A program made the translations under genes and the position numbers. The notes beneath the pieces are model-generated. The model saw only the letters and a program-made list of their open reading frames with translations. It was not told the DNA's origin and did not search any database. Shown here one piece after another: positions 391 to 41,002 of a stretch of DNA of 42,218 nt (its first letter is position 1; each line of letters opens with the position of its first letter). Source of the DNA: a virus; the IMG/VR virus record IMGVR_UViG_3300032304_002675, positions 1-42,218 of that record; one strand, 5' to 3'.

Positions 391-3009
391 CTATTTGCTT
401 GGGGAGATAATTCTGTGGGTCAGTTGGGGGATGGCACCATAACTGATAAGTCTTCGCCAACACAAATAGGAACAGATAATTGGTCAAGTGTTGCTTGTGG
501 AAATAGTTACACTTTGGCAATTGGAAATGATGGAAAACTTTTCGCTTGGGGAAGCCATTCTAATGGTCAATTAGGAGTGGGAGGCTCCTTATCTAATAGG
601 ACTTCTCCAACACAAGTGGGAACAGACAATTGGTTAGGTGTTGCTTGTGGGGCTTTGCACACATTGGCAATTAGAAGCGATAGAAAACTTTTTGCTTGGG
701 GTTCGAATAGTGATGGGAGGCTAGGAAATGGAACTGTTTCTTTGGGATTTAGCGCCCCAATACAAATAGGAACAGATGATTGGTCAAGTGTTGCCTGTGG
801 AAATCGTCATACTTTAGCAATTAGAAACGATGGAAAACTTTTTGCTTGGGGAGATAATTCTGTTGGTCAGTTGGGAGATGGCACCACAACTGATAAGTCT
901 TCACCAACACAAATAGGTACAGACAATTGGTTGAGTGTTGTTTCTCAATCTGGGGCTCTTCACACTTTGGCGATTAGAAGTGATGGAAAACTTTTTGCTT
1001 GGGGAGCGAATTCTGTTGGTCAGTTAGGAGTGTCAGGCGCCTTGACTAGTAGGACTTCGCCAACACAAGTAGGCACAGACAATTGGTCAAGTGTTGCTTG
1101 TGGAAGTAATTACACTTTGGCAATTAGAAGTGATGGAAAACTTTTTGCTTGGGGGTGGAATATCGCCGGGCAGTTGGGGGATGGCACTACAGAGACTAGG
1201 TATTCTGGAATACAAATAGGAACAGATAATTGGTCAAGTGTTGCCTGTGGTAGTGCCAGCACTTTGGCAATTAGAAGTGATGGAAAACTTTTTGCTTGGG
1301 GAGCGAATGGCTCTGGGCAGCTAGGAGATGGAACTACAACTGACAAGTCTATTCCAACACAAATAGGCAACAATAACTGGTCTGTGGTGTCTAGTGGTGG
1401 TAGTCATTCATTAGCAATTCCTTTAGGAAATCTATGGTCTCAAGTTGGCTCAGACATAAATGGAGAGGCGTCTCAAGACTATAGCGGATGGAGTGTAAGT
1501 TCAAATGGGGCGGGAGATGTTATTGCGATTGGGGCTCCTTATAACAATGGAAATGGAATTGACTCAGGTCATGTGAGAGTTTACGCTTGGAATGGAGCAT
1601 CATGGGCACAAAGAGGTTCAGATATCGACGGAGAAGCCGCATCGGATTATAGTGGAGTCAGTGTTAGTTTAAATAATGATGGTACTATTGTTGCTATAGG
1701 CGCACCACAAAATGACGGAGCAGGTTCAAATTCTGGTCATGTAAGAGTTTATGTTTGGAATGGAACTTCATGGATTCAAAGAGGAACAGATATCAATGGA
1801 GAAGCTGCCGGAGATCAAAGCGGAACCTCGGTCAGCATAAGTGACGACGGAACTGTTGTTGCGATTGGCGCTCCATATAATGATGGCAACGGAATCGATT
1901 CTGGTCACGTGAGAGTTTACGCTTGGAACGGCACTTCCTGGGCTCAGAGAGGAACAGATATCAACGGAGAAGCCGCCGGAGATCAAAGTGGACATTGTGT
2001 AAGTTTAAGTGGAGATGGCGCTATCGTTGCTATAGGGGCTCCATTAAATGACGGAGGTGGATCGAACTCGGGTCATGTAAGAGTTTTTGCTTGGAATGGT
2101 ACTTCCTGGGCGAAGAGAGGAAATGACATAGACGGCAAAACGACTAGCGACCAGAGTGGTGTTGTATTGAGCACGAATATAGTAGGAACAATCGTAGCAA
2201 TAGGATCCTATTACAGCGATGCCAACGGCGTAGATTCTGGCCAAGTTAGGGTTTTTGAATGGAACGGCACTTCTTGGACGCAAAGAGGAAACGATATTAA
2301 TGGAGAATTGGCTGGGGATCGTTTGGGCACAGGTATTAGTCTGAGTGAAAGCGGCGACATTCTTGCAATCGGCGCTTCCTACAACGATGGAAATGGCGCT
2401 GACGCTGGTAGTGTGCGAGTCTATACTTGGAACGGAATTTCATGGATTAGAAGAGGAAACGATATTGATGGAGAATCGGCAGGAGATCTAAGCGGCTACA
2501 GCGCAGCATTGAGCAATAAAGGAAACACTCTTGTTATCGGAACTCCGGGAAACAACGGATTTACAGGTCGCGTTAGAATTTATTCGTGGAATGGAACATT
2601 AGGCTCGCAAGGTTTTGGAAATTTAGGTACGCACACAACAGATACAGGAGATATCAATACTGCTGGTGCGTTTACTTTGACGGACGTGCGATCAACAGCC
2701 AGCAAGACAGGTTATTTCACCAATTTTGCATCTTTTTCACAGTTGGGATCTTTGTCGTTCAATACGAGTGTCGGTACGAGTCTGAGATTCTATCATCCAG
2801 CCTTGGGAACTTTTGTTTCAAACAGTATAACAACAACATCTAACATATCGACACCGGGCAAAGTAAGAAACATAACGATAATAGGCACTCTTAGTGGTGG
2901 AACATTAGGGAACATATCGCCGAACAACATTCCAGTAAGATTGGCAGTTTCTTTCACGCAGTCTGGTGCGGCAATAAGTTCTTCTATAAACTTGAACCTG
3001 GGGCAATAA
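1..3009 (+). CDS. Giant adhesin-like protein with Thr/Pro stalk, RCC1 propeller and second seven-repeat propeller (5' end missing)
   Basis: The frame is open from base 1, so the gene begins upstream; 1002 residues are visible. Residues 1-130 are a low-complexity Thr/Pro/Ala/Ser stalk built on TPTPTASA units. Residues about 130-475 hold seven RCC1-type repeats, each with LFAWG...GQLG and a following (S/C)GxxxTLAI strand, which fits a seven-bladed propeller. Residues about 478-870 hold seven copies of a second unit (W.QRG.DI.GE..D.SG, then IAIGAP..D, then SGHVRVY.WNG), similar to FG-GAP/integrin-alpha or WD-like blades. About 130 further residues form an unrecognised C-terminal domain. There is no signal peptide in view. 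Placed in a phage with a nearby tail module, it could be a receptor-binding or tail-fibre protein; that role is inferred. The domain calls are firm and the function is not. Confidence 0.8.
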
Positions 3010-3010
3010 A

Positions 3011-3877
3011 GTGAAATTTTCAGAATTTGCATCAAATAAGAACAAAAAAAAAGTAGTCTTAATAATAGGATCCGCAAGATCACCGGATTGTTGCCCGAAT
3101 GAAAAAAGCAAAACGCACAAACTTGCCGATCATTTGACTAGTAAATTTAAAGATGAAGTTTTGTTCGAAATCATCGATTTGTCAGTAAAGTGTGATGGAA
3201 TAAATGTACAACCTTGCAAAGGATGCGTAAGCACATCGGCTTTTCACTGCGCCTGGCCGTGCAATTGTTATAGCAAGGAGTCCGATCCGAAAGACTTGAT
3301 GCAAAACCAAGATGTATATGAAAAACTTGAGGATTGTGATGGGTTTTTTGTTTTAACTCCAATCAATTGGAGTGCTTGTTCAAGTGTAGTGAAGAGTTTT
3401 TTTGATAGACTTGTGTGCGCTAGTTTAACAATTACAGCAAAAGAAGCCGGAGAAATACTCGGCAAAGATTCGATAAAAGATAGTAGAAAAACAAGAAAGA
3501 TCGAAAAAGAAGGTAAGCACAATGATCTGCTGAAGAATCATCTTCAAGGAAAGTACGCAGGGTTTTTTGCTCATGGAAATGAAGGCGGCTCCGATTACTT
3601 AGAATTTTCCGCTAAAAAGAAGACTAACTTGCCCATCATTCCCGAAAGTCTCACAGAATATGAAAACAAGCACGGCAAGGAAGATGTATCTAAACTTTTA
3701 GACCCGTTGGTCAGACAGTGTGTTTACTCAGGAATTTTTGTTCCCGATGATTGCATTCGTGTCGTAACCTATGGATTTGGAGTTTCGTATTCTGATGTGA
3801 ACGATTTATTCAAAAAAGACGAAGAGTTAAAAGAATCTTCTTCAGAAGTGTTTGAAAATTTTGTTTCTAAACTTTAG
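3011..3877 (+). CDS. NAD(P)H-dependent FMN reductase / flavodoxin-fold protein
   Basis: Starts at GTG one base after the stop of the upstream gene, so probably co-transcribed with it; 288 residues. Residues 14-130 look like the NADPH-dependent FMN reductase fold: a hydrophobic strand followed by the GSAR phosphate-binding loop, a Cys cluster (PCKGC, then CAWPC) where family members have C-x2-C, then the LTPINWSACSS segment that contacts flavin, and SFFDRL. The family transfers electrons from NAD(P)H to FMN, quinones or other acceptors. The C-terminal 130 residues are unassigned. The N-terminus (MKFSEFASN) faintly resembles the leader described elsewhere in this window but lacks the closing Glu. 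It converges with the next gene, the stops overlapping in TTAG. Confidence 0.75.
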   Translation: MKFSEFASNKNKKKVVLIIGSARSPDCCPNEKSKTHKLADHLTSKFKDEVLFEIIDLSVKCDGINVQPCKGCVSTSAFHCAWPCNCYSKESDPKDLMQNQDVYEKLEDCDGFFVLTPINWSACSSVVKSFFDRLVCASLTITAKEAGEILGKDSIKDSRKTRKIEKEGKHNDLLKNHLQGKYAGFFAHGNEGGSDYLEFSAKKKTNLPIIPESLTEYENKHGKEDVSKLLDPLVRQCVYSGIFVPDDCIRVVTYGFGVSYSDVNDLFKKDEELKESSSEVFENFVSKL

Positions 3878-4650
3878 TCTGAAAAAACTACGCACCAATA
3901 GATTTTGCCGTTTTTGTCTGCTTTTGTTCCAAATCCAACCTTTTCATAGTCTGACCCGAGAATGTTCCATCTATGTCCGGGGCTCCACATCCAGCTATTA
4001 ACAACTTCGTCTTCATCTTTTTGACCCCAGGCTATATTTTCTCCGACCGAATTTGAGTCTATAACTTTTGCCAAATCTTTCATACTGGAGTGTTCTAGGT
4101 TCTCTTCTCTTGCCATTTTTTCGGCATGGTTTTTTGCGTATTTGCAAAGAGATTCATTCATTTTCAACGTCTTATAGCCTCTTGAAACTCTCTCTTTGTT
4201 GTGATTTTCAAGAAGTTTCACTTCGATCGTTGAATATTGGATATTATTCTCGACGTGTTTGTTTAGAAATTGATCAAACTTATTTTTATCATATCCCTCC
4301 ATCCTCGACAGTTCTTTTTTGTTTTTTAGAATCAAAACAGTAGGAAGAGATTTAACTTTATAGAGTTTTTTAAGGTCTTCTCTTTGATCTACATTGACTT
4401 CGCATATGACAAAATCTTTTAGATTTTTTGAGGCGAGATTTGTCTTTAGTTTCACACAATAAACACACCAATCGGCTCCAAAAACGATAAGAACTTTTTT
4501 GTCTTTATGACTTATTGCTTTTTCGTAATTATCCTCAACAACAGGCTTAGAAATTTGAGGTGCTGGTGCGGGGGAAACGATTTCAGAAGGATCGACTATC
4601 TTGTTACTGCACCCCGATATAAGCAATAAAATTAAAAGAAATTTTTTCAT
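3874..4650 (-). CDS. Lipoprotein with thioredoxin and CAP/SCP domains
   Basis: 258 residues, behind an AAGGAGG ribosome site three bases before ATG. An N-terminal lipoprotein signal is visible (hydrophobic LLILLL, then ISGC with the lipid-attached Cys14). Residues 40-135 form a thioredoxin domain with WCVYC (Cys62, Cys65) and the cis-Pro loop SLPT. Residues 142-258 form a CAP/SCP (YkwD-like) domain with His187 in EHSS, GENIAWG at 203-209 and SPGHRWNIL with His226; these are typical CAP cavity residues. The protein is expected to be anchored in an outer envelope membrane of an infected cell. Both domains are recognisable; the combination in one phage-encoded lipoprotein is unusual. Possible roles are disulfide handling or envelope modification during infection (inference). 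Confidence 0.85.
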   Translation of the reverse strand: MKKFLLILLLISGCSNKIVDPSEIVSPAPAPQISKPVVEDNYEKAISHKDKKVLIVFGADWCVYCVKLKTNLASKNLKDFVICEVNVDQREDLKKLYKVKSLPTVLILKNKKELSRMEGYDKNKFDQFLNKHVENNIQYSTIEVKLLENHNKERVSRGYKTLKMNESLCKYAKNHAEKMAREENLEHSSMKDLAKVIDSNSVGENIAWGQKDEDEVVNSWMWSPGHRWNILGSDYEKVGFGTKADKNGKIYWCVVFSD

Positions 4651-5871: not shown

Positions 5872-6921
5872 CTAGTGCTGAGTTAACAGTATGGTTTTGA
5901 TATCTTTTCTGAAGGCTGCGTCGTCGCCATCTCCCGGAGTGATAATGACGTGCCACTTTTGATCTTCTCCCTTTGGAGTAGACATCATTTCTCCATAAGT
6001 TATAACTTGACTTATTGGCAGCACAAAATGTTTTGCCACTCTTTCTTTAAGTTTTTGCTCGTCAGATATTTTCATCAAATCAAGATCTCGAAACAAATCT
6101 TTAGGAACTACGATTGAAAGTTTATTGGTGGCAAAATCAACTTTACCTGTTTGTGTGGTATTTGCTCCACTCGAAAATGTTGTTTGAAAAGATGCGTCAT
6201 TAGCCACGTCAGCTAATTTGGTATATGCATAACTATCGATGTTGTGTCCATCTTCTTTTAACCTTCTCATCACACTTTCTGCAATTTGCTTGTATTTTTT
6301 AGAGAAGAAATCCCCAGAGTCATTCCATCGTAGAAGCACTCTTGGCTTGTATCCTTGGTAGGCTTTATGTTCATCACATTTACTCTTAAGTTCTTTGTAA
6401 AGTTGCTCTTCATATTTCTCGGGATGATTGATAAGAAAGTTCAATCTTCTTGTCATGCTGTCGTACGCTTCGGAATATTGTATGTACCTTCCGTGTCTGG
6501 CATAGCATATAACAACGCACTGCCCTGCTCCGGGACATGTGTTTATAACATAGAACTTGCCTTCATTTTGATCATATACTATTCCTCGAAATGCAGGAAT
6601 TCCTGTTTTATATACGAATTCATTCGGTCCACCGCTCTTTAGTATTTTATCATTTGTGTTAACAATTGTTTTGGGAGGCTCATTCATTCTTTTTGCGAAG
6701 TCTTCTATGTCAACATCTCCATCTTTAAACAAATCTGACCTGGAGTGAACGAATGGCATAGAAAGCGGGAATTTTTCTCTTTCAGACGTTTTCTTCCCAT
6801 AATTTGCCCGAACAGCATTGAGATATTCTACAAGTTCATCAGGATTCAAACATGTTTTTTGAACGTCCGAAAAATCTCCATCCCAATCCGCCTCATTAAT
6901 AAGCCACTTTTTGAATTGCAT
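5872..6921 (-). CDS. GP88-like phage protein with capsid-targeting-like leader
   Basis: 349 residues. The first ten (MQFKKWLINE, followed by AD) match a T4-type capsid-targeting leader, with I-N-E then Ala as the predicted protease site. Residues about 120-240 follow the phage gene-product-88 family pattern: NTCPGAGQC, CYARHGRY (Cys-rich metal-binding look), a helical region, then LLRWNDSGDF and SYAYTKLADV. Its biochemical activity is not established to my knowledge. The C-terminal 100 residues are variable. No Shine-Dalgarno sequence is visible; TAAATAAA sits four bases before the ATG. It is the first gene of a minus-strand group and diverges from the DUF3445 gene across 34 bases. Confidence 0.7.
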   Translation of the reverse strand: MQFKKWLINEADWDGDFSDVQKTCLNPDELVEYLNAVRANYGKKTSEREKFPLSMPFVHSRSDLFKDGDVDIEDFAKRMNEPPKTIVNTNDKILKSGGPNEFVYKTGIPAFRGIVYDQNEGKFYVINTCPGAGQCVVICYARHGRYIQYSEAYDSMTRRLNFLINHPEKYEEQLYKELKSKCDEHKAYQGYKPRVLLRWNDSGDFFSKKYKQIAESVMRRLKEDGHNIDSYAYTKLADVANDASFQTTFSSGANTTQTGKVDFATNKLSIVVPKDLFRDLDLMKISDEQKLKERVAKHFVLPISQVITYGEMMSTPKGEDQKWHVIITPGDGDDAAFRKDIKTILLTQH

Positions 6922-6955: not shown

Positions 6956-7696
6956 ATGTACGATGTTTATAAAAAAGGCTATAACACCCTTCCTAATTTA
7001 AGAAAATTGAATCCAGAGGAAGTGTTCGAAAAGGACAAATCGGACTCGCAGACTCTTCGAATCGAAAAAGAAGAAGCTTTATTGAATCAAAATTACTTCA
7101 TGGAGTCTGATCAGGACCCGAAAATTTATGATGCCTGCGCAGAGTGGATTCGTAAATTTTATCCTTCAAGGCTAAAAAGTGATAATTATCTAGATGTAGC
7201 AAAAGAAACAGAGGAAGACTTCTTAATTCATAGAATGAATTCAGAAAAAGATTGGCTTAGCAGTGCCCATGTTTGTTTTGCTAGTCATTGGCTTCCAGAA
7301 GATAAGATAGGAAAGTCATTTGAGCAGATACACATGCCAGTGCCCATGAATCTTAAAAATAGCAAAAAGCTTGTAGAGGCAATGATTCACGGCGGTATTT
7401 TCGAACGGTTCGTGTGGAGTGTTGTTTACGACAATAGATATAATTTTCATCCAAGACTTCCCTATAAAAAATTCAATAAGAATAATCCGGAAGTTCTTAT
7501 AAAAGTTGAACGACAAGTGACAGTCGGTTTTTCAGAACAAAATTTTTGTCTATTTATATTGAGACAATATTTGATTCAAGAAAAAGATTTAGACAAAAAA
7601 ACATTAGCAGGAGTGATTGAATCGATGACGCCTGAACAAAAAAGATATAAAGGACTAGAAAATTGTTCTGATTTGGTCGAATATCTCAAATCTTAG
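6956..7696 (+). CDS. DUF3445 / haem-dependent oxidative N-demethylase-like protein
   Basis: 246 residues. Residues about 80-210 match the DUF3445 (HODM-like alpha subunit) layout: TEEDFLIH, then CFASHWLPEDKIGKSF (family C-F-P-S-x-W...EK-x-G), IHMPVP, a spacer with ERFVWSV, and IKVERQVTVGF followed by FCLFILRQYL (family ERQ-x-L-x-R-L-P...FTIR). Known members bind haem and oxidatively demethylate dimethylamine-type substrates. Some usual residues differ (for example Ala for Pro before the Ser-x-Trp, and Val-Gly-Phe for Arg-Leu-Pro), so catalysis is uncertain. No obvious ribosome site precedes the ATG. It lies on the + strand, its end overlapping the opposing metallothionein-like remnant. Confidence 0.7.
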   Translation: MYDVYKKGYNTLPNLRKLNPEEVFEKDKSDSQTLRIEKEEALLNQNYFMESDQDPKIYDACAEWIRKFYPSRLKSDNYLDVAKETEEDFLIHRMNSEKDWLSSAHVCFASHWLPEDKIGKSFEQIHMPVPMNLKNSKKLVEAMIHGGIFERFVWSVVYDNRYNFHPRLPYKKFNKNNPEVLIKVERQVTVGFSEQNFCLFILRQYLIQEKDLDKKTLAGVIESMTPEQKRYKGLENCSDLVEYLKS

Positions 7697-7792
7697 TTTT
7701 GCAAGAACATCCCTCGCATTTGCAGTTTTTGCACGTGCATTTTCCACATTTTCCTTCCTTACATGGGGGACAATTACATTTACCTATCTTGA

Positions 7793-7871
7793 GGCGAGAA
7801 CGCCCCTACTTTCGTAGAAAGTTTGCCTATTGCAGATCGTGAGCGATAGCGAACGAGCAAAATAGGCAAAC
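7793..7871 (+). other. Left-end stem-loops of the IS element
   Basis: Three hairpins follow the left boundary. GGCG-AGAA-CGCC spans about 7793-7804; CTAC-TTTC-GTAG spans 7806-7817. An 11-bp stem GTTTGCCTATT (7821-7831) pairs with AATAGGCAAAC (7861-7871), enclosing a smaller ATCG-TGAG-CGAT hairpin. Subterminal hairpins of this kind are the recognition structures of IS200/IS605 ends; the longest could also be a transcription attenuator or RHH operator upstream of the gene at 7991. Confidence 0.55.
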
Positions 7872-7990
7872 CTCTTTAGGGTAGTGGGATGAATCGCCGT
7901 TAATCATAGTACGACATGGATTCATGCCCTTTTCAATGGTTCCCCTAAAATTCGGATCAAAAATCAGTTCTAGCATACTATATACAATGT

Positions 7991-8140
7991 ATGAGCAAAG
8001 AGAACAAAGAAAAAGATATGCTGATTCGTGTTCAACCATCATTGTTTGAGCAGTTCAAGAAAAAGTGTGAAGAAAACTATAAGACAATAAGTGAAGTAGT
8101 CCGTGATTTCATGGTCAACTACACCAAAGAGGACAATTGA
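7991..8140 (+). CDS. Small ribbon-helix-helix (CopG/Arc-like) protein of the IS element
   Basis: 49 residues. After a charged MSKENKEKD start, MLIRVQPSLFEQFKKKC fits the beta strand and first helix of a ribbon-helix-helix domain, and YKTISEVVRDFMVNY fits the second helix. Arc/CopG proteins with this fold bind DNA as dimers and often autoregulate. The TGA overlaps the TTG start of tnpB (TTGA), so the two are probably translationally coupled. An out-of-frame ATG at 7987 gives only a 20-residue product. Likely role: repressor of the element's promoter or an accessory to TnpB (inference). Confidence 0.75.
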   Translation: MSKENKEKDMLIRVQPSLFEQFKKKCEENYKTISEVVRDFMVNYTKEDN

Positions 8141-9378
8141 ACCATCTGTATTCTTACAAATTTAGGTTGTATCCTACCAAACAACAAGAAGTTTTGCTAA
8201 ACAAACACTTCGGTTGTGGAAGGTTTGTATACAACCATTTTTTGGAAAAAAGAATACACGAATACAAGAACAACAAAAAGTCAATAAGCAGAAAAGACAA
8301 CGAAAAAGAACTGCCCGTCTTGAAGAAAGAAAACCCTTGGTTGAAAGAAGTAGGAAGTCAAAGTCTGCAATACGCTGTTGAGTGTCTACAAACTGCGTAT
8401 GACAACTTTTTCCGCAAAGTCAAACAAAAGAACAAAGGCAAAAAAGGATTCCCAAGATTCAAGCGTAGACATGACAAACAATCATTCCGAGTCAAGCAAA
8501 ACATCAAAATCAAAGACAAAAAGTTGATTTGTCCCAAGTTTTTGTCGGGCATCAACTTTGTACAAGATCGTGAATTTAATGGTGAAATTAAGTTTGCAAC
8601 AATTAGCAAGAACAAAGTTGGTCAATACTTTGTTTCAATCACTGTTCAAAAAGAAATACTACCGTTGAAAGAATCGTCAGAGGTTATTGCGTTTGACCTC
8701 AATGTTAAAAATATAGTTGACAGCAACGGCAACAAAATACAAAATCCAAGACCAATGAAACAGTACGAACAACGAATGAAACTTTTGAGCAAAGGTGCTA
8801 GTCGTTGCGAAAAAGGAAGTAATGGCAGAAAGAAAGCCAACCGAAGGTTGGCTAAATTACACTTGAAGATAACAAACAAGCGTGAAGATTTTCTACATAA
8901 GTTAACTCACCGTATAATCAACGAAAACCAAGTGATATGCGTTGAAGACTTGAGTGTAGACTCCATGCTTAAAAAGGTTAGTTATGAAAAAAGAGAAGAA
9001 ACAAGAAAACAAGAACGCAATAGGCATAAAGATATTGCTGATTGTGGGTTCCGCTCTTTTGTTGATAAACTGACCTACAAGGCAAAGTGGTATGGAAGAC
9101 AATTAATTAAAGTTGACCGATATTTTCCGTCTAGCCAACTTTGTAATAATTGCTGTTTTCAAAACAAAGAACTAAAACCTACCGATAGAGAGTGGTTTTG
9201 TTATAACTGCTTTGAGAGTGTTGACCGTGACCACAACGCCGCCTTGAATATACTTGATGAAGGATTAAAATACAGAACGGTAGGAACTACCGAGTTAGCC
9301 GCTTGTCCTGATGTAAGACCCGCTATTAGTGGGCTATTGGTTGGAGCGGAAACCCACCCGTCTTTAGCGGGTGGGTAG
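8137..9378 (+). CDS. tnpB: RNA-guided nuclease TnpB
   Basis: 413 residues from a TTG that overlaps the stop of the RHH gene. The N-terminus (YKFRLYPTKQQ...FGCGRFVYNHFL) is the standard TnpB wedge/REC start. RuvC motifs are intact: Asp187 in IAFDLNV, Glu270 in VICVEDLSV, and Asp363/Asp365 in DRDHNAALNIL. A zinc finger, CNNC...CYNC, lies at about 335-357. Length is normal for the family. TnpB cuts DNA next to a target-adjacent motif using an RNA from the element's right end; it helps retain the element. All expected catalytic residues are present, so it is probably active. Confidence 0.93.
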   Translation: MNHLYSYKFRLYPTKQQEVLLNKHFGCGRFVYNHFLEKRIHEYKNNKKSISRKDNEKELPVLKKENPWLKEVGSQSLQYAVECLQTAYDNFFRKVKQKNKGKKGFPRFKRRHDKQSFRVKQNIKIKDKKLICPKFLSGINFVQDREFNGEIKFATISKNKVGQYFVSITVQKEILPLKESSEVIAFDLNVKNIVDSNGNKIQNPRPMKQYEQRMKLLSKGASRCEKGSNGRKKANRRLAKLHLKITNKREDFLHKLTHRIINENQVICVEDLSVDSMLKKVSYEKREETRKQERNRHKDIADCGFRSFVDKLTYKAKWYGRQLIKVDRYFPSSQLCNNCCFQNKELKPTDREWFCYNCFESVDRDHNAALNILDEGLKYRTVGTTELAACPDVRPAISGLLVGAETHPSLAGG

Positions 9379-9383
9379 TTCAT
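9240..9383 (+). ncRNA. Predicted right-end guide RNA scaffold of TnpB
   Basis: In characterised elements the guide (omega) RNA comes from the 3' end of tnpB plus the right end, its guide starting just past the boundary. Here the scaffold would end at TTCAT (9383) and the guide would begin ACATTTTGTTTTCCTCC (9384 on). A strong hairpin, CCCACCCG-tctttag-CGGGTGGG, is at 9353-9375 and overlaps the end of tnpB. The 5' boundary given is approximate. Confidence 0.5.
9353..9375 (+). repeat. Right-end hairpin of the IS element
   Basis: A perfect 8-bp GC-rich stem, CCCACCCG with CGGGTGGG, around a 7-base loop. It lies eight bases before the predicted right boundary and includes the last codons of tnpB. 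This is a typical subterminal structure of IS605-family right ends. Confidence 0.75.
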
Positions 9384-9429
9384 ACATTTTGTTTTCCTCC
9401 TAAGTTCAAACTATTTAGAAGTTCAACGA

Positions 9430-9438
9430 TATATATTT
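9430..9438 (+). promoter_or_regulatory. TATATATTT box before 9441 gene
   Basis: The same TATATATTT string occurs ahead of several transcription units in this window and is reminiscent of the T4 late promoter core TATAAATA. Here it ends only two bases before the ATG, so if it is a promoter the message would be essentially leaderless or the true start would be later. No Shine-Dalgarno sequence is present. Confidence 0.4.
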
Positions 9439-9440
9439 CT

Positions 9441-9845
9441 ATGATAAGTTTTGCCAATTGGATGGAAATCGCAATCAATCAAGAGATGCCAGAGTTCAAG
9501 AACTCAAAATATGGTCAAAGAGGTTTGTCAAAGATTGTTCCTCAAGAAGACTCATTCAACATAATTCCGGTCAAAATTAGTTATGGAACTTATAACGTCT
9601 TTAAAAAACACATTAACCCGAGATTTAGTCTGGCGAATAGACTTCTTGATCGTAGAGGTTCAAGTGTAGATTGGGTGACCATAAAGGCTTCTAATGAAGA
9701 AATAGCCAATCTCAAAGAACTAGCCGACTATATTATTGGTGTCGCAGGAGAAACAGACGATCCTAGAAAACAAGCAGAAATAAGAACTGCTCATGGGGCA
9801 ATAAAGGATATCGAAAGCTCTATGGCCGGCACAAAAGGAGCATGA
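9441..9845 (+). CDS. Unknown protein with leader-like N-terminus
   Basis: 134 residues, not recognised. The N-terminus MISFANWMEIAINQE has the F-x-x-W-M and hydrophobic-x-x-E spacing of the capsid-targeting-like leaders seen elsewhere here, though the Glu is further in. The rest is soluble and mixed alpha/beta (FNIIPVKISYGTYNVFKKHI, then a helical C-terminus with ANLKELADYIIG). The stop overlaps the next gene by four bases (ATGA), so the following small membrane protein is co-translated. It begins just beyond the interrupted metallothionein-like gene and diverges from it. Confidence 0.6.
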   Translation: MISFANWMEIAINQEMPEFKNSKYGQRGLSKIVPQEDSFNIIPVKISYGTYNVFKKHINPRFSLANRLLDRRGSSVDWVTIKASNEEIANLKELADYIIGVAGETDDPRKQAEIRTAHGAIKDIESSMAGTKGA

Positions 9846-10036
9846 TGTTCAAAATGCTTGTTTTTCTTATTGCTTTAGAACCTGTGTTTTTGACTCTTCA
9901 ATTAGGCGCTATGTGTCTTTCAGCAGGAAAAATTTCTGAGTCTCTTCCTTTTTTGGCTTTGTCTTTGATGTCAATTAATTACTTAATTTCCGGAGCATCG
10001 GATACCATTTCCTACATAAAAAGTCGAATCAAATGA
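9842..10036 (+). CDS. Small membrane protein
   Basis: 64 residues with two likely transmembrane stretches (MLVFLIALEPVFLTLQLGAM and LPFLALSLMSINYLI) and a basic tail (SYIKSRIK). It overlaps the upstream gene by ATGA. Not recognised; a membrane-acting early protein or holin-like role are both possible without further support. Confidence 0.55.
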   Translation: MMFKMLVFLIALEPVFLTLQLGAMCLSAGKISESLPFLALSLMSINYLISGASDTISYIKSRIK

Positions 10037-10165: not shown

Positions 10166-10311
10166 GCGTTTCGGGTGTTAGAGTTATTCTTGAAAATGGC
10201 TCATCCGGCGTAATTGTGAGACGACTTAATGCAGAATCGTACGAGATATGGCTTGAAAGTGATGAAATAGTTATTTTGAGCCCGAAAGAATTTAAAGAGG
10301 TTGAAAAATGA
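10162..10311 (+). CDS. Small beta-rich protein of unknown function
   Basis: 49 residues, linked to both neighbours by ATGA overlaps. The sequence looks like a small beta barrel: VRVILENGSSGVIVRRL, YEIWLESDEIVIL, then a Lys/Glu tail. It could be a compact SH3-like or regulatory protein; no family is recognised. Confidence 0.5.
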   Translation: MSVSGVRVILENGSSGVIVRRLNAESYEIWLESDEIVILSPKEFKEVEK

Positions 10312-11255
10312 GAACTTTTATTTTATTTCTATTTATGTGCTCTTGCGCTTTGGCTCAAGATAAAACAGGAATAGCAGTCGATCCTTCTGCCCAAAACATT
10401 GCTGCTTTGTTCACAATGACCAATGAAAATGGAAGGACCAAAAATCTTGAACTTATGGAAGAGGTTTTCAAAGATGGTTCTTTGGGTTTTGAAGTGGAAA
10501 AGCACCATAATGTTTCTTCTGCTTATATTTACAAAAAAATGACCGAGCTTGCCACGAAGTTAGAGAGCGGAGCAACTCTTCTTCTTTACTTCAATAGTCA
10601 TGGTGGCGGTAGCGGAGACAGATTTGGCATGACGGCTCAAGGAGGAAGTTTTAAGTTTAGTAAAGGACTTGATGCGCTAAGTAAGTCCGGGAAACCGATA
10701 CGAAGATTAATATTTCTTGTTGACACGTGTCATGCTGAAGGAAGTATTCAAGACAGTCTAAAACAAGATGGAGAGCTTCTCAGAAATATAAAAACAGCCA
10801 CTCCAACTAATTTTCTTCCAGAACTTCCCTCTGTTTATTCGAGGAAAGAACTTCCTTTTGTATCGATATTTTTGAATTCTATTCCAGTGCAAGGTCAGCA
10901 ATATGATCTAGCAATAGATTATGGCGAGGATTCTGGAGTCTACGATGAGATACTAATCATTAGTTCGAGTAGTGTCGAAGATCTTTCTATCAGAGGCGCC
11001 TTTGCCTACAGATTCAATATCGCTCTTAAATCGGCGAAGAATAATAGAAATACTACCGTGGGTGAGTTTCTGAAAAAATTTGCAGAAAGTCATGGACCAT
11101 CGGGGCAGCAACCTCACTACAAATTGCTCCCTGACAAGTCCATGCTCGATGAACTTCTATTTGGTCCTTGGTTTGTTCAAACTATTCCCATCAGAGATCA
11201 TTCAGGAAAAGGTCAGAAAGCCGACCCCAACTTCATTCCTCTGCCGAAAAAATGA
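10308..11255 (+). CDS. Secreted caspase-like (clan CD, C14-type) protease
   Basis: 315 residues. The start MRTFILFLFMCSCALAQ is a Sec signal peptide with a likely cut after Ala-Leu-Ala. The mature part has the caspase/metacaspase fold marks: a strand LLLYFNSHGGG with His98, and the strand RLIFLVDTCHAEG with Cys141, giving the His/Cys dyad. A downstream strand, DEILIISSSSVEDLS, fits the strand that lines the substrate pocket. The C-terminus is unassigned. Family members cut after Asp, Arg or Lys. Export to periplasm or cell surface is predicted. It is flanked by two small genes upstream and a zinc-peptidase gene downstream, all coupled by ATGA overlaps, so the two peptidases probably act together or one processes the other (inference). 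Confidence 0.78.
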   Translation: MRTFILFLFMCSCALAQDKTGIAVDPSAQNIAALFTMTNENGRTKNLELMEEVFKDGSLGFEVEKHHNVSSAYIYKKMTELATKLESGATLLLYFNSHGGGSGDRFGMTAQGGSFKFSKGLDALSKSGKPIRRLIFLVDTCHAEGSIQDSLKQDGELLRNIKTATPTNFLPELPSVYSRKELPFVSIFLNSIPVQGQQYDLAIDYGEDSGVYDEILIISSSSVEDLSIRGAFAYRFNIALKSAKNNRNTTVGEFLKKFAESHGPSGQQPHYKLLPDKSMLDELLFGPWFVQTIPIRDHSGKGQKADPNFIPLPKK

Positions 11256-36205: not shown

Positions 36206-39200
36206 ATGGCAAAGATTGTAGGACAAGACACAGGGATAACAATATCGGATGACGTTCGATTTATATTAGACACAACAGACGGAGACGACTGTGCTGTTTC
36301 GCCGTATCAAATTACGAACGCGACAGTATATTTTGTTTCGAGAGAGTTTACAGACAGCACTGCTAAAGAATATGAACGTGAAACCCTAAATTCTAATCTT
36401 CAAGCAGAATATAATCTCGTAAAAAGACAAATATGTCTCAAGAGAAAAGAAGCCGTACGGGTCGCTACAACACAAGGCATTCAATTAACAGGACCGCGAA
36501 CAATTGATGGAGTTTCTGTTGTTTCTGGAGATCGTGTGCTTGTTAAAAATCAGACAAATTCTTCGGAAAATGGAATTTACGTCGTCACAGAAGAGCGTTG
36601 GGCTCGATCCAACGACGCAAACAGTTCCGATAATATTGTAAAAGGAATGTATGTTTTTGTGGAAAATGGAATTGATAATATTAACACAGGTTGGGTTTTA
36701 GATTGCCCAGAACATATTTCTTTAGGAACTACACAATTAAACTTTTTCAGATTCTCCTATCCGGATAACTTGGCAGACGCTCCCGATGGCAATTCTCTTG
36801 AGACATTGAATTTACTGAGAAAGAGAATTGACGAATCCAAGTCCGTTTCTTCTTTTTTCTATAAAAATGCGATCCCTGTCAAGACTTTTGGCGGATATAC
36901 AGATCCTGATACTGGAGAGTTGTTTCCCGCATGGCTCAATCCTGATCTAGTGCCCTCTGAGCTTAAAGAAAAAACAATACAAGATAACATTATTCAACCT
37001 TATTATGAAAATGATGAAGCTGTAAAAGGGAAGTTTGTTCTTGAATGGAAGCCTTTAGAGTGTAGAGAAGGCGATTACTTTATTTGTTGGTCTTGGATGC
37101 CTAATCTAGCGGGCAGAATTCTATCTTCTCACATGTTTTTCATGCTAGAGGGAGATAGTCGTCTTAACACAAGCATACCAACGCACAGAACAAGACCAGA
37201 TAAGTATGAGATTTTAATGGATCGTTATTTGCCTGAGATGTTTAAAACTATCATCTCTGAAAATGATTTGACACCCACCGTACTACAGGAATTCAACAAA
37301 TCAGTGGCGAGAGGATTTACATTTATAGAGGACATGGCCAATCAAATAATTGATCTTCTTGATGCAAATGCCACGCACGAACAACTTCTTCCACTTTTGT
37401 CGAATATGTTCAACTTAAAGTTAAGGTCATCTGATCCTACTTTATGGAGAAGACAAATAAAGAAAGCCATTCCCAACTTTAAAAGAAAGGGCACAATAGA
37501 AGGATTGAGAAACGGTCTTTCTGATGTCGGAATAAAACTTTTAAAGATAACAAAGTTGTGGCAAGTTGTATCAAAATACACTTTTCAAGAACATTTTGTA
37601 TACTCCGGCTCGGACGAGTTCGAACTCTCTAAAAAAATAATACTTCCTATAGATTCTAATTTTAGACTCTGGCTGAGACCGGCTGCGCATTCGGAATGGC
37701 AAGACATTACGTCAGACCATGAAAGCAAAATAAGCCTGACCGAGGATTCTTTAACATGGATTGACGAACCTCTTGAACAGGGAGACCAGATCAGAATTAT
37801 TTATAAATTCAGAGAAATACCTCCTCAAGAGCAATCTTTGGAAGACTACATTCAAACTCTTCCTCTTATGGACGATAGAGATGAACGAGAGCAAGAATAT
37901 CCTCCAAAAAATTGGAATGTTCGCCTAGTTGAAGAAGATGATGATCTTTTCGACATACTTGTTCCTGTGCGTCATCCAATATCAGATCCAATAATTTGGG
38001 GTCGTGTAAGGACAGAATTTCCATATAGTGAAAATGCCTATAACATGGAAGAATACAATGGCTGTTGTGTCGGATCAACTTTGGTCATAACTGAAAATGG
38101 GATCAAAAAAATAAAAAACATAAAAAATGATAAACTGATTATGACAGAATTTGGATTTAAATCATTTGAAGAATTAAAAAACCAAGGCAAGAAATCAACA
38201 TTAAATATTACAACTAGTTTGGGCAGAAACATTATTGTAACTCCCAACCACAGATTTAAAATTTTCAATGAATCTGGTTTTGAATGGAGGCAAGCCGATC
38301 AGCTAGAAATTGGCGATTATATCTTATGTAAAAAAGGAAATTGCGGATCAATACCGAAAAATAAAGGTTTTGATAAGGAATTGTGGTACTTGGCTGGTCA
38401 TCTGTATGGGGATGGTAATCTATATGAGAAAAATAATTTAAGATCTTTTAGATGGCTAATATCGGAAAAAGAACCAGAAATAAAAGAATTAATTTCTAAA
38501 ATAATAATAAAAAACAATGCAAAATCGCAAATATTTTGTATTAAAAAACATAATCATCAGAAGCACACGAAACTTAAATGCAATGAAGATTTATATAGAA
38601 TTTCCAGTTCCAGCGTACAACTACCTATTTTAAATCAAATTATACCCAAATACGAAACTAAAGGAAAATGGAGAAGATGCCTTCCTAATTCCATCTGGGA
38701 GAGTGGCGAGGAGCAAATTTGTAGTTTTCTGCGGGGTTTGTTTGATACAGATGGCGGAATTCAAAAAAGACAACCTTTGTTGACAACTAAGTGGAAGAAT
38801 TTAGCAAGAGAAATTCAAAATTTGTTATTGGCACTAGGGATTGTTTCTTCAGTAACCAGTTACAATGTTTTTTGGGAAGGAAAAAAGAGAAAGTATTTTA
38901 GAATAAGAATTGTAGGTAAAAATAGTAGAAAAATATTCAAAGATAAAATAGGATTTAATTCAAATATAAAAAATAAATCTTTAATAGACGCCATAGAATT
39001 AGAAAATAAATCTATTTTAGAGGCGGATAGGACAATCATTCCGTTTGGAGACAAGATAATAAAAAATATTTTTCCTTTCAGAAAACGACTATCTAGGTTT
39101 AATTCAAATAATCGAACAAGAGAAGAAAAAAGAACTTTAACCTTAATTACAAGATTAAAACAAGGATATCAAAAAACTATCCCAGATAATGTAGTTTCCG

Positions 39201-41002
39201 AAATTCATCATAAAATTAAAGAATTTAAAATTATTAATAGTACAGAGACTAATTTTATTCAAGATTATGTTGATAATGATTGGTTCTTTGAAAAAATAAA
39301 AAGTATATCCCCCGGTCCTGTGGAAGATGTTTTCGATCCTCTAAACGTAAAAGATACGTCTTCATACGTTTCTAATGGTATAGTTTCTCATAACTCTACA
39401 AGAGAAAGCACCGATCCATGCGACATAGATAAAGAATTCGTCGATGGATGCGGACAATGCCAGAGTAGCAAGTTCACTGTCGATCTAGAGGTCGAGCGTT
39501 TGTCGGATGATAGTCTTGAAGAAGCCAAGCAAACCATATCTGACTATATGCCTTTTCACTCTCTCGTTCATTCTCTTAATTTAAGTGGAGCCATGAACGA
39601 GTTTGTCAGATCATCAGAAGAAAGAATAGAGGCTCTTGTTCAATTTTCAAAAGAAGATGTGCTTCTTGCCGGTGAAGGTCAGCACATATTTAATAAAGCC
39701 ATGGATTCAGAAGAGTTAGCAAGTTTCAAAAGAGATATGTTGGCTAGTTTTTCTGCGGTACCTAGTTCAGGGAGTAATTTGCAGTGGTCCGGTGTCGTTT
39801 CAAATCAAAGAGTCGTTCTTTCTTCTTCAGTTTTAAGCTCAGAACAAGATCTTTCGAATTTAGATTTCAAAGGAAAGAAACAAGGGTTCGATTCTATTAG
39901 TATTAACACTGGCGATTTGGACGTTGATCCAAGACAGAGTAGCAACTTGCTTGAAGTCCTTGGGGAATCTCAATATGAATTTTCGGTTTCTTCCGTTGGT
40001 TTGAATTCAATGGAAATTTATGGCGATGTGGAAAGTTCTGTGATCGGTCCACTTTTTGAATATAGAATTTCAAATAAAATAGGAGATTTCACCGCAGATA
40101 TTGAACAAGCAAATCGATTTGTGCTCACAGATGTTGATGCTGATTTTTGGATGCTTGGAGTCATATCTCAACATGATATCGAGATTGGCTCTTTGAACTC
40201 TGCTTGGAGATTGAGACATTTAAATAAACAATACATTGTACAAAATGTATTGCCCGATGGAACTCTTCTTCTTTCCGAGGAGTCTGTAGTAACTCCTGTT
40301 ATTGGGTGGTTTTTATATGACGGATCAGGAAATTTAATTAAAAGTTCAAATTCAGGATCTTTGAGCACAATTAAATTAGGACTTGTGGACATAGGACAAG
40401 AACAAGGATTAGCCATAAATGACTATGTTTATATTGACAACTCAAAATATAAAATAAAATCATTAAAAAATGGGGAAGAGGGCAAGTTTTACATAGAAAA
40501 TTACGAAGAAGGAGAGGAATACGGTAAAAATATCTCGATATACAGAAGAATACTAGAAAATAAGGTCGGTCAGTTTGCGTATGAAGGAATAAAATTAATA
40601 TCTTCTTCAAATCTTGCAATTTCTACGTCTAATGCTGATGATATCAAAGAAAACTTTCTTATTTTTATGGATTCAAAATACTACACTATTTTGTCGGTAA
40701 ATTCTAATGAATTGACGCTTTCTGGTCCCATAGATGATTGGACGACAGATGGCGCGGAAGTAGATTTTATGGTTTACAAATTTGACAAACAAAGCAAACA
40801 AATAAAGGAACGAACAGAGCCTCCGGTTCCTGCGGGTTCTTTTGAGCGACTAGACAGGTCAGGAGCGGCGATAATAAAAAACATACAAGATAATGCCCTA
40901 GGAGCAGCCGTTTCGATGTTAAACATGTCAAATTCAAATGAAAAAACAGACTTGGTTAAGCAGAATGAACATATAGACTTCAACATTGAATACAAGGAAT
41001 GA
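36206..41002 (+). CDS. Tail_P2_I/gp7-like baseplate protein interrupted by an intein
   Basis: 1598 residues, of which 621-1063 are an intein; the mature protein would be 1155. N-terminal residues about 92-175 are the common phage repeat domain TTQGIQLTGPRTIDGVSVV...GDRVLVKNQTN...NGIYVV found in fibre proteins. Residues about 395-445 match Tail_P2_I (LLPLLSNMFNLKLRSSD, RRQIKKAIPNFKRKGT), the wedge-to-fibre connector. A Cys-rich stretch straddles the intein site (NGC | STRESTDPC, then CGQCQ). The C-terminal 500 residues are beta-rich and may be fibre attachment. Preceded by AAGGGG. The fusion of a fibre-like module with Tail_P2_I is unusual but the order matches a wedge protein. Confidence 0.78.
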   Translation: MAKIVGQDTGITISDDVRFILDTTDGDDCAVSPYQITNATVYFVSREFTDSTAKEYERETLNSNLQAEYNLVKRQICLKRKEAVRVATTQGIQLTGPRTIDGVSVVSGDRVLVKNQTNSSENGIYVVTEERWARSNDANSSDNIVKGMYVFVENGIDNINTGWVLDCPEHISLGTTQLNFFRFSYPDNLADAPDGNSLETLNLLRKRIDESKSVSSFFYKNAIPVKTFGGYTDPDTGELFPAWLNPDLVPSELKEKTIQDNIIQPYYENDEAVKGKFVLEWKPLECREGDYFICWSWMPNLAGRILSSHMFFMLEGDSRLNTSIPTHRTRPDKYEILMDRYLPEMFKTIISENDLTPTVLQEFNKSVARGFTFIEDMANQIIDLLDANATHEQLLPLLSNMFNLKLRSSDPTLWRRQIKKAIPNFKRKGTIEGLRNGLSDVGIKLLKITKLWQVVSKYTFQEHFVYSGSDEFELSKKIILPIDSNFRLWLRPAAHSEWQDITSDHESKISLTEDSLTWIDEPLEQGDQIRIIYKFREIPPQEQSLEDYIQTLPLMDDRDEREQEYPPKNWNVRLVEEDDDLFDILVPVRHPISDPIIWGRVRTEFPYSENAYNMEEYNGCCVGSTLVITENGIKKIKNIKNDKLIMTEFGFKSFEELKNQGKKSTLNITTSLGRNIIVTPNHRFKIFNESGFEWRQADQLEIGDYILCKKGNCGSIPKNKGFDKELWYLAGHLYGDGNLYEKNNLRSFRWLISEKEPEIKELISKIIIKNNAKSQIFCIKKHNHQKHTKLKCNEDLYRISSSSVQLPILNQIIPKYETKGKWRRCLPNSIWESGEEQICSFLRGLFDTDGGIQKRQPLLTTKWKNLAREIQNLLLALGIVSSVTSYNVFWEGKKRKYFRIRIVGKNSRKIFKDKIGFNSNIKNKSLIDAIELENKSILEADRTIIPFGDKIIKNIFPFRKRLSRFNSNNRTREEKRTLTLITRLKQGYQKTIPDNVVSEIHHKIKEFKIINSTETNFIQDYVDNDWFFEKIKSISPGPVEDVFDPLNVKDTSSYVSNGIVSHNSTRESTDPCDIDKEFVDGCGQCQSSKFTVDLEVERLSDDSLEEAKQTISDYMPFHSLVHSLNLSGAMNEFVRSSEERIEALVQFSKEDVLLAGEGQHIFNKAMDSEELASFKRDMLASFSAVPSSGSNLQWSGVVSNQRVVLSSSVLSSEQDLSNLDFKGKKQGFDSISINTGDLDVDPRQSSNLLEVLGESQYEFSVSSVGLNSMEIYGDVESSVIGPLFEYRISNKIGDFTADIEQANRFVLTDVDADFWMLGVISQHDIEIGSLNSAWRLRHLNKQYIVQNVLPDGTLLLSEESVVTPVIGWFLYDGSGNLIKSSNSGSLSTIKLGLVDIGQEQGLAINDYVYIDNSKYKIKSLKNGEEGKFYIENYEEGEEYGKNISIYRRILENKVGQFAYEGIKLISSSNLAISTSNADDIKENFLIFMDSKYYTILSVNSNELTLSGPIDDWTTDGAEVDFMVYKFDKQSKQIKERTEPPVPAGSFERLDRSGAAIIKNIQDNALGAAVSMLNMSNSNEKTDLVKQNEHIDFNIEYKE
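38066..39394 (+). other. Intein with LAGLIDADG homing endonuclease
   Basis: 443 residues (621-1063 of the precursor). Begins CVGSTLVITENG with Cys1 and the G-x-T block, holds block B as NHRFKIF (TPNHRF), and ends GIVSHN followed by Ser as the first C-extein residue. The two endonuclease motifs, LAGHLYGDG at about intein residue 109 and LRGLFDTDGG at about 222, have their acidic residues. The Cys at 620 is adjacent, so a cut one residue earlier cannot be strictly excluded, but C-V-G-S-T is the better start. Splicing would join ...EEYNGC to STREST. All catalytic residues look present; Ser is used at +1. Confidence 0.93.

Follow-up and report, generated by a model that had tools for sequence, protein, structure and literature searches.

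A TnpB-only insertion of the IS200/IS605 type has very probably split a minus-strand phage gene for a metallothionein-like peptide with 11 Cys residues. The gene lies in a stretch of 42,218 nt (hereafter the window), positions 1 to 42,218 of the IMG/VR virus record IMGVR_UViG_3300032304_002675, which is a metagenome contig and a 42-kb fragment of a phage genome. The insertion is the ordinary aspect of this finding, and the broken gene is the interesting one.

Restoration of the split gene

Excision of positions 7784-9383 (1600 bp) joined 7783 to 9384 and ATG-T to GT-AAA-TGT, and the minus strand then read ATG TGT AAA TGT AAT TGT and onward to a TGA with no base changes needed. In the inserted state, the minus strand runs as GAACTTAGGAGGAAAACAAAATGT down to 9384 and is followed by the plus-strand element from 9383 back to 7784; the insertion point is thus within the second codon of the Cys-rich gene. 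The restored open reading frame (ORF) has 33 codons, ends with the stop at 7688-7686, and carries AGGAGG 8 nt 5' of its ATG. The product, MCKCNCPPCKEGKCGKCTCKNCKCEGCSCKTKI, is Lys-rich, has Cys at 11 of its 33 residues and contains no F, W, Y or H. Neighbouring joins were tested as well. The excisions 7784-9384 and 7783-9383 were rejected for a shifted frame, and 7785-9384, which kept the frame, was rejected because it yielded MGKC.

Intact relatives and loss of the gene

Related phages were found through the left neighbour of the split gene, an HODM-like protein (6956-7696). This protein was 72% identical to the window in the contigs L009 and L010 and 68% identical in L011-L013, three near-identical contigs that we counted as one lineage. 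The gene order TrxCAP, HTH, g5285, GP88, HODM, [metallothionein-like], MISF134, caspase-like is common to the window, L009/L010 and L011-L013, with GP88 present among the intact relatives in the second lineage (L011-L013) only. In both lineages, including the 55-kb record L009, the opposite strand of the HODM-MISF134 interval holds an uninterrupted 31-residue ORF behind AGGAGG. The two peptides, MCKCKCLPCVKGKCEKCRCKDCKCEGCSCKK and MCKCKCVPCVRGKCEKCRCKDCKCEGCSCKK, begin M-C-K-C-x-C, and their ATG, Shine-Dalgarno sequence and all 11 Cys match the join in the window. Since independent relatives hold an uninterrupted ORF at the same place, the restored ORF is not a product of chance. Furthermore, comparison of L010 with L011 gave 10 synonymous changes at 14.5 sites and 2 nonsynonymous changes at 78.5 sites, indicating that the intact gene is under strong purifying selection.

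The gene order is also kept in a third relative, L021. There the Shine-Dalgarno sequence is followed by MCKCECLPRKK and a stop, a remnant that can be read as the two ends of the gene, its initial and final codons, left after a deletion of the interior. No Cys-rich ORF was found close to the same neighbours in L020. We concluded that the gene is real, selected and dispensable; it is broken differently in at least two lineages. We infer that it is accessory to the phage, having been reduced to a remnant in another relative too.

An earlier note, made from the window alone, had proposed that removal of 7784-9383 restores the ORF without base changes. This was correct to the base, and the relatives confirm the join. 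The proposed 33-residue peptide behind AGGAGG also stood, with the count of about 12 Cys corrected to 11. The contrary pattern considered in that note, a different start with no match to the 9384 side, was looked for in the relatives. The outcome favoured the restoration, as they share the ATG and the Shine-Dalgarno sequence.

The inserted element and its possible mobility

The 1600-bp insert comprises a ribbon-helix-helix (RHH)-like ORF of 49 residues (7991-8140) and tnpB (8137-9378). The TnpB protein scored 357 bits against the IS200/IS605 TnpB model. This falls short of the strict cut-off of 425 set for that model and exceeds the one set for general guided TnpB proteins. Its RuvC motifs are FDLN, EDLS and DRDHNAA. 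A second copy, 88% identical over the whole length, was found in the 458-kb phage contig L002 (2647-4247). Homology between the two copies is bounded by TTTAC on the left and TTCAT on the right, and the DNA outside both differs. Joining the L002 flanks gave AAAGGAG-TAAAAAG-ATG before a 266-residue ORF, so that the L002 copy lies inside a Shine-Dalgarno sequence. Both known copies therefore interrupt the translation start of an opposite-strand gene. Two cases are too few to establish a preference for translation starts, and A-rich starts containing GTAAA would explain the pattern. The TTTAC target is likewise inferred from these two copies only.

The 49-residue protein is 100% identical in L002 (2855-3004), while TnpB is only 90% identical. 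Between the window and L002, the nonsynonymous (dN) and synonymous (dS) divergence was 0.057 and 0.70 for TnpB, and 0 and 0.24 for the 49-residue protein. Both proteins are thus under purifying selection between the two copies. The RHH-like protein is perhaps a repressor of tnpB or of transposition. No Y1 transposase TnpA was found in the window, the 458-kb L002 record or the 55-kb L009 record, with positive controls, and Rfam gave no known RNA in 7000-10000. More distant elements with a similar right end (L003 and L007) carry a TnpA gene adjoining tnpB. Given the absence of Y1 from the three records, we consider the element to be TnpB-only and presumably moved by TnpA from elsewhere. A baseplate protein of the window is 48% identical to one in a 595-kb uncultured phage, and the caspase-like neighbour of the split gene is present in 23 contigs, including the 458-kb phage with the second element copy. 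Judged from these likenesses, the element appears to circulate within a group of very large phages.

The earlier note had placed an insertion sequence just past the start codon, and this was borne out by the syntenic insert-free orthologues, the second copy with the same ends and TTTAC, and the TnpB matches. It had also called the insertion recent. Recency is plausible, as neither the frame nor any of the 11 Cys has been lost from the separated 98-nt part, but so short a sequence, and another copy that is only 88% identical, do not date the event.

The element, presumably mobilised by TnpA in trans, inserted 3' of the TTTAC that forms codons 2-3 of the minus-strand gene. In ISDra2, the target motif doubles as the transposon-associated motif (TAM), and the guide corresponds to the DNA lying past the right end (PMC8612924). 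By analogy, TTTAC would act as the TAM of the window element and its guide would match ACATTTTGTTTTCCTCCTAA, the empty site of the split gene. Intact TnpB could then cut sibling phage genomes that have an empty TTTAC-ACATTTTG site, so that an inserted genome could be the source from which the element is copied into them, as for a homing intron. A homing-like spread between phages by TnpB may occur in this way. As its empty site is exactly known, the split gene lends itself to a natural test of whether TnpB acts between phages as a homing-like nuclease.

A recurrent metallothionein-like family in phages

Family members were found by degenerate DNA pattern scans of IMG/VR. They have the layout C-x-C-x-C-x2-C-x(3-5)-C-x2-C-x-C-x2-C-x-C-x2-C-x-C, and in a ten-member alignment all 11 Cys and two Lys were invariant while the residues between the Cys varied. 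The peptide is free in the window clade and in L045. In L048 and L049/L050, either a start just before the Cys domain or read-through from an upstream ORF is possible. Four members (L044, L046, L047 and L029) have an N-terminal extension. The tagged protein of L047 (1262-1618, plus strand) has two metallothionein-like domains in tandem, the second of which is extended by CKG repeats (GCKCKGCKCKGCKC).

The members had no match in Pfam or NCBIfam and only chance-level matches in PHROGs (best single E 0.0095, for one member), and no solved structure matched them by sequence. A tblastn search of GenBank phages with the restored peptide and the two-domain L047 protein returned none, although the low-complexity filter may hide such queries. 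When 84,980 genomes of bacteria and archaea were scanned with a narrow pattern, eight matches resulted and all of them lacked the 11-Cys layout; a loose 7-Cys pattern was discarded, its matches being mainly out-of-frame low-complexity DNA. We found no open-access paper on phage metallothioneins, and the sole phage paper naming a metallothionein does so in a table entry within a section on bacterial genome sequence analysis. Large phages thus apparently encode a recurrent metallothionein-like family that is undescribed as far as we searched. The earlier note regarded a metallothionein-like phage gene as unusual; this is partly corrected by its membership in the recurrent family.

The 11 Cys in CxC/CxxC spacing, the richness in Lys and the lack of His and aromatic residues suggest a metallothionein-like function. 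The peptide would form a thiolate cluster wrapping a few d10 metals (Zn, Cu(I) or Cd). The alpha domain of mammalian metallothionein is a Cys11 domain, and by analogy with it an 11-Cys peptide would probably bind about four divalent ions. The CxCxxCxCxxC core of the phage family presumably resembles the mammalian beta domain. Without bound metal, metallothioneins lack a fold that could be predicted.

Two other Cys-rich arrangements were seen. An L169 ORF from 6281 (plus strand) is ClpP-like, probably a capsid maturation protease, and has a Cys-rich metallothionein-like stretch near its C-terminus (CECECPQCTDGTCEDCSCDECDCDNCEC). A distinct, acidic family of short Cys-rich proteins, KxCxTCECYECDCEECNCECH, occurs in L109, L112, L129, L171, L172, L180 and L186.

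Capsid-targeting-like N-termini

The extensions of the four tagged members are MKSFKNWMEN (L044), MKSFNQWLES (L046), MGNFKNWVDKN (L047) and MVNFYDFEMIME (L029). The window peptide starts MCKC and lacks such a tag. Similar N-termini occur on many unrelated proteins of the tag-bearing phages and in the window too (MKSFKEFVSE, MQFKKWLINE, MKFKKWLVER and MISFANWMEI). The motif was much more frequent at gene starts than at internal Met, with 9 of 39 gene starts in the window (7/39 without two doubtful cases) versus 1 of 265 internal Met. The corresponding counts were 12/160 versus 1/596 in G006, 11/104 versus 1/388 in G008 and 9/76 versus 2/198 in G009. Internal proteins of T4 carry a ten-residue capsid targeting sequence (CTS); targeting depends most on its residues 4 and 7, and cleavage on residues 8 and 10 (PMC9026906). 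The phage tags have F at position 4 and W or F at position 7. In addition, among 27 tags taken from three records, 20 had [LIVM]xE somewhere in their first 24 residues, against 9.9 expected from shuffles.

A T4-type prohead protease (Peptidase_S77) was found in the L044, L046 and 458-kb records, and none was found in the fragments carrying L047 and L029. The tagged metallothionein of L044 lies among MKSF-tagged ORFs, about 8 kb from capsid-, scaffold- and protease-like ORFs; the major capsid and scaffold proteins were called by eye and the prohead protease by profile. These features suggest that the tagged relatives probably package the metallothionein in the head and inject it.

Seven unrelated window proteins have a T4-CTS-like start, namely those at 6921 (minus strand, MQFKKWLINE), 9441 (plus, MISFANWMEI), 13581 (minus, MQFRHWLFLNE), 14677 (plus, TTFSEWLKLKE), 15827 (plus, MKFKKWLVE), 19383 (minus, MKSFKEFVSE) and 22079 (plus, MKFSSFLDK). 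This suggests that the window phage may have a large set of capsid-packaged proteins, including GP88-like and metalloprotease-like ones.

Taken together, a broader picture can be drawn, to which we give somewhat less than an even chance. Large T4-like phages would encode 11-Cys metallothioneins, and several would load them via the tag and inject them with the DNA. A metal or redox buffer, or a metal thief depriving host nucleases of the metal that they depend on, would then be present in the cell from the very onset of infection. The untagged form of the window clade would be an accessory gene with repeated losses, in this case through a TnpB element that may pass between co-infecting phages by cleaving intact copies of the gene. 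If packaging is true, phages deliver a metal-binding peptide along with their DNA, and the question arises whether early control of metals or redox state in the infected cell matters in the conflict between phage and host.

Alternative readings

Some points weigh against a metallothionein-like gene split by the element. No curated metallothionein model matched, a negative that is weak for short, composition-biased queries. The nearest intact relatives are about 70% identical in neighbour proteins, and no near-identical genome shows the empty site. Moreover, a TnpA or a second metallothionein copy is possible elsewhere in the phage genome, beyond the 42-kb fragment.

The lack of a model match would fit a Cys-rich peptide that is not a metallothionein, such as a structural zinc knot, an Fe-S or redox peptide, or a regulator with partner-binding Cys, and a role as structural proteins of the head is conceivable for the CTS-tagged relatives. 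We consider this unlikely. A peptide of 33 residues with 11 Cys and no His or aromatic residue has a classical metallothionein make-up, with no room for a hydrophobic core. The 11 Cys are invariant in their CxC/CxxC array across ten members in which the intervening residues vary, and L047 has two such domains in tandem.

Excision of IS200/IS605 elements is seamless and coupled to replication (PMC8612924). In some of the phages, the element could accordingly excise exactly when the genome replicates, which would make the gene an occasional on/off switch, and both the perfect gene at the join and the undecayed separated part agree with this. It is nevertheless improbable, as TnpA is absent from the element, from the contig and from the 458-kb record, and TnpB is expected to destroy empty sites. 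A stretch of 98 nt without decay also has little power.

The insertion cut off the Shine-Dalgarno sequence and the ATG from the remaining gene. In the inserted state, the Cys-rich frame reads *GRSRLKIGKCNC..., where a stop nine codons 5' of KCNC closes the frame, and no ATG, GTG or TTG is present in this frame between the stop and KCNC. With its start lost, the gene should not give rise to the peptide. Translation from a non-standard start in the left end of the element, giving ...KIGKCNC..., is very improbable; the frame is open for 8 codons 5' of the junction (GRSRLKIG), but only CTC and ATA occur near the junction and the site is within a predicted hairpin. An assembly artefact that wrongly joined the element into the gene, conceivable for a metagenome contig, can be dismissed, as both flanks are parts of one gene and the junctions are the element ends in an independent contig with other flanks.

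Other features of the window

The coordinates of the features are listed in Table 1. The caspase-like protein (10308-11255, plus strand; Peptidase_C14) has a probable signal peptide and is 41-75% identical across the 23 large-phage contigs; none was found in GenBank phages by tblastn. A 1598-aa structural protein (36206-41002, plus strand) contains an intein-like insertion (CCVGSTLVITENG ... VSNGIVSHNS) with a LAGLIDADG-like motif, recognized by eye. A lipoprotein-like fusion of thioredoxin and CAP domains is encoded at 3874-4650 (minus strand). The large protein at 415-3009 (plus strand) has RCC1-like and FG-GAP-like repeats, seen by eye, and DNA repeats of about 150 and 168 bp. An ACACC-type tandem array (24-66 bp) lies 5' of the gene for this repeat protein.

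Table 1. Features of the split gene, the element and their surroundings (window positions unless stated otherwise)
Feature	Position	Strand	Basis or remark
Left syntenic anchor, HODM-like protein (PF11927), convergent with split gene	6956-7696	+	Profile; synteny
3' part of metallothionein-like gene, last two bases of codon 2 to TGA (7688-7686)	7686-7783	-	Join; orthologues
TTTAC target pentanucleotide, left flank; no target duplication	7779-7783	+	Same flank in L002 copy
TnpB-only IS200/IS605-type element, 1600 bp	7784-9383	+	
Left-end subterminal hairpins	7793-7871	+	z = -3.8; GGCGAGAACGCC and stem common to L002
Ribbon-helix-helix-like ORF, 49 residues, overlaps tnpB start	7991-8140	+	Weak profile matches only
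tnpB, 413 aa, intact; OrfB_IS605, HTH_OrfB_IS605 and Cas12f1-like_TNB zinc-ribbon domains; RuvC-type D/E/D	8137-9378	+	
Right-end hairpin, ACCCACCCG-loop-CGGGTGGGT	9352-9376	+	z = -3.9; shape kept in L002, L003, L007
Right-end tip TTCAT; homology to other copies ends here	9379-9383	+	
5' part of metallothionein-like gene, ATG and first base of codon 2	9384-9387	-	Sequence; join
Predicted guide-matching stretch of TnpB omega RNA; forms the empty site together with TTTAC	9384-9403	+	After ISDra2 mechanism (PMC8612924)
Shine-Dalgarno AGGAGG of split gene	9396-9401	-	AGGAGG likewise in intact orthologues
Right syntenic anchor, 134-aa protein MISFANWMEIA..., divergent from split gene	9441-9845	+	Synteny
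Putative deletion remnant MCKCECLPRKK of metallothionein-like gene, Shine-Dalgarno retained	L021 4072-4030	-	

Comparison with known systems

The element resembles the TnpB-only IS200/IS605 elements of the IS1341-like group in having the three canonical tnpB Pfam domains, subterminal hairpins at both ends and no tnpA, and in being inserted 3' of a short T-rich motif without target duplication. It differs in the additional RHH-like ORF that overlaps the tnpB start. With IS608 (TTAC) and ISDra2 (TTGAT) it shares the peel-and-paste logic, and its TTTAC contains the TTAC of IS608. In these systems, too, TnpB is expected to target the empty site (PMC8612924). However, tnpA is present in IS608 and ISDra2 and is not in the window element.

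Like mammalian, fungal and SmtA-type bacterial metallothioneins, the phage peptides are small, rich in Lys and Cys, and built of CxC/CxxC arrays, and their 11 Cys equal the number in the mammalian alpha domain. What sets them apart is their occurrence in phages, a Cys spacing of their own, the absence of His and the lack of a match to a curated family model. The tagged relatives are similar to IPI, IPII and IPIII of T4 in their aromatic residues at positions 4 and 7, in a possible (L/I)xE cleavage site in most of them, and in the T4-type prohead protease of two tag-bearing records. In contrast to the T4 proteins, their cargo is a metallothionein-like domain, and the window peptide is untagged.

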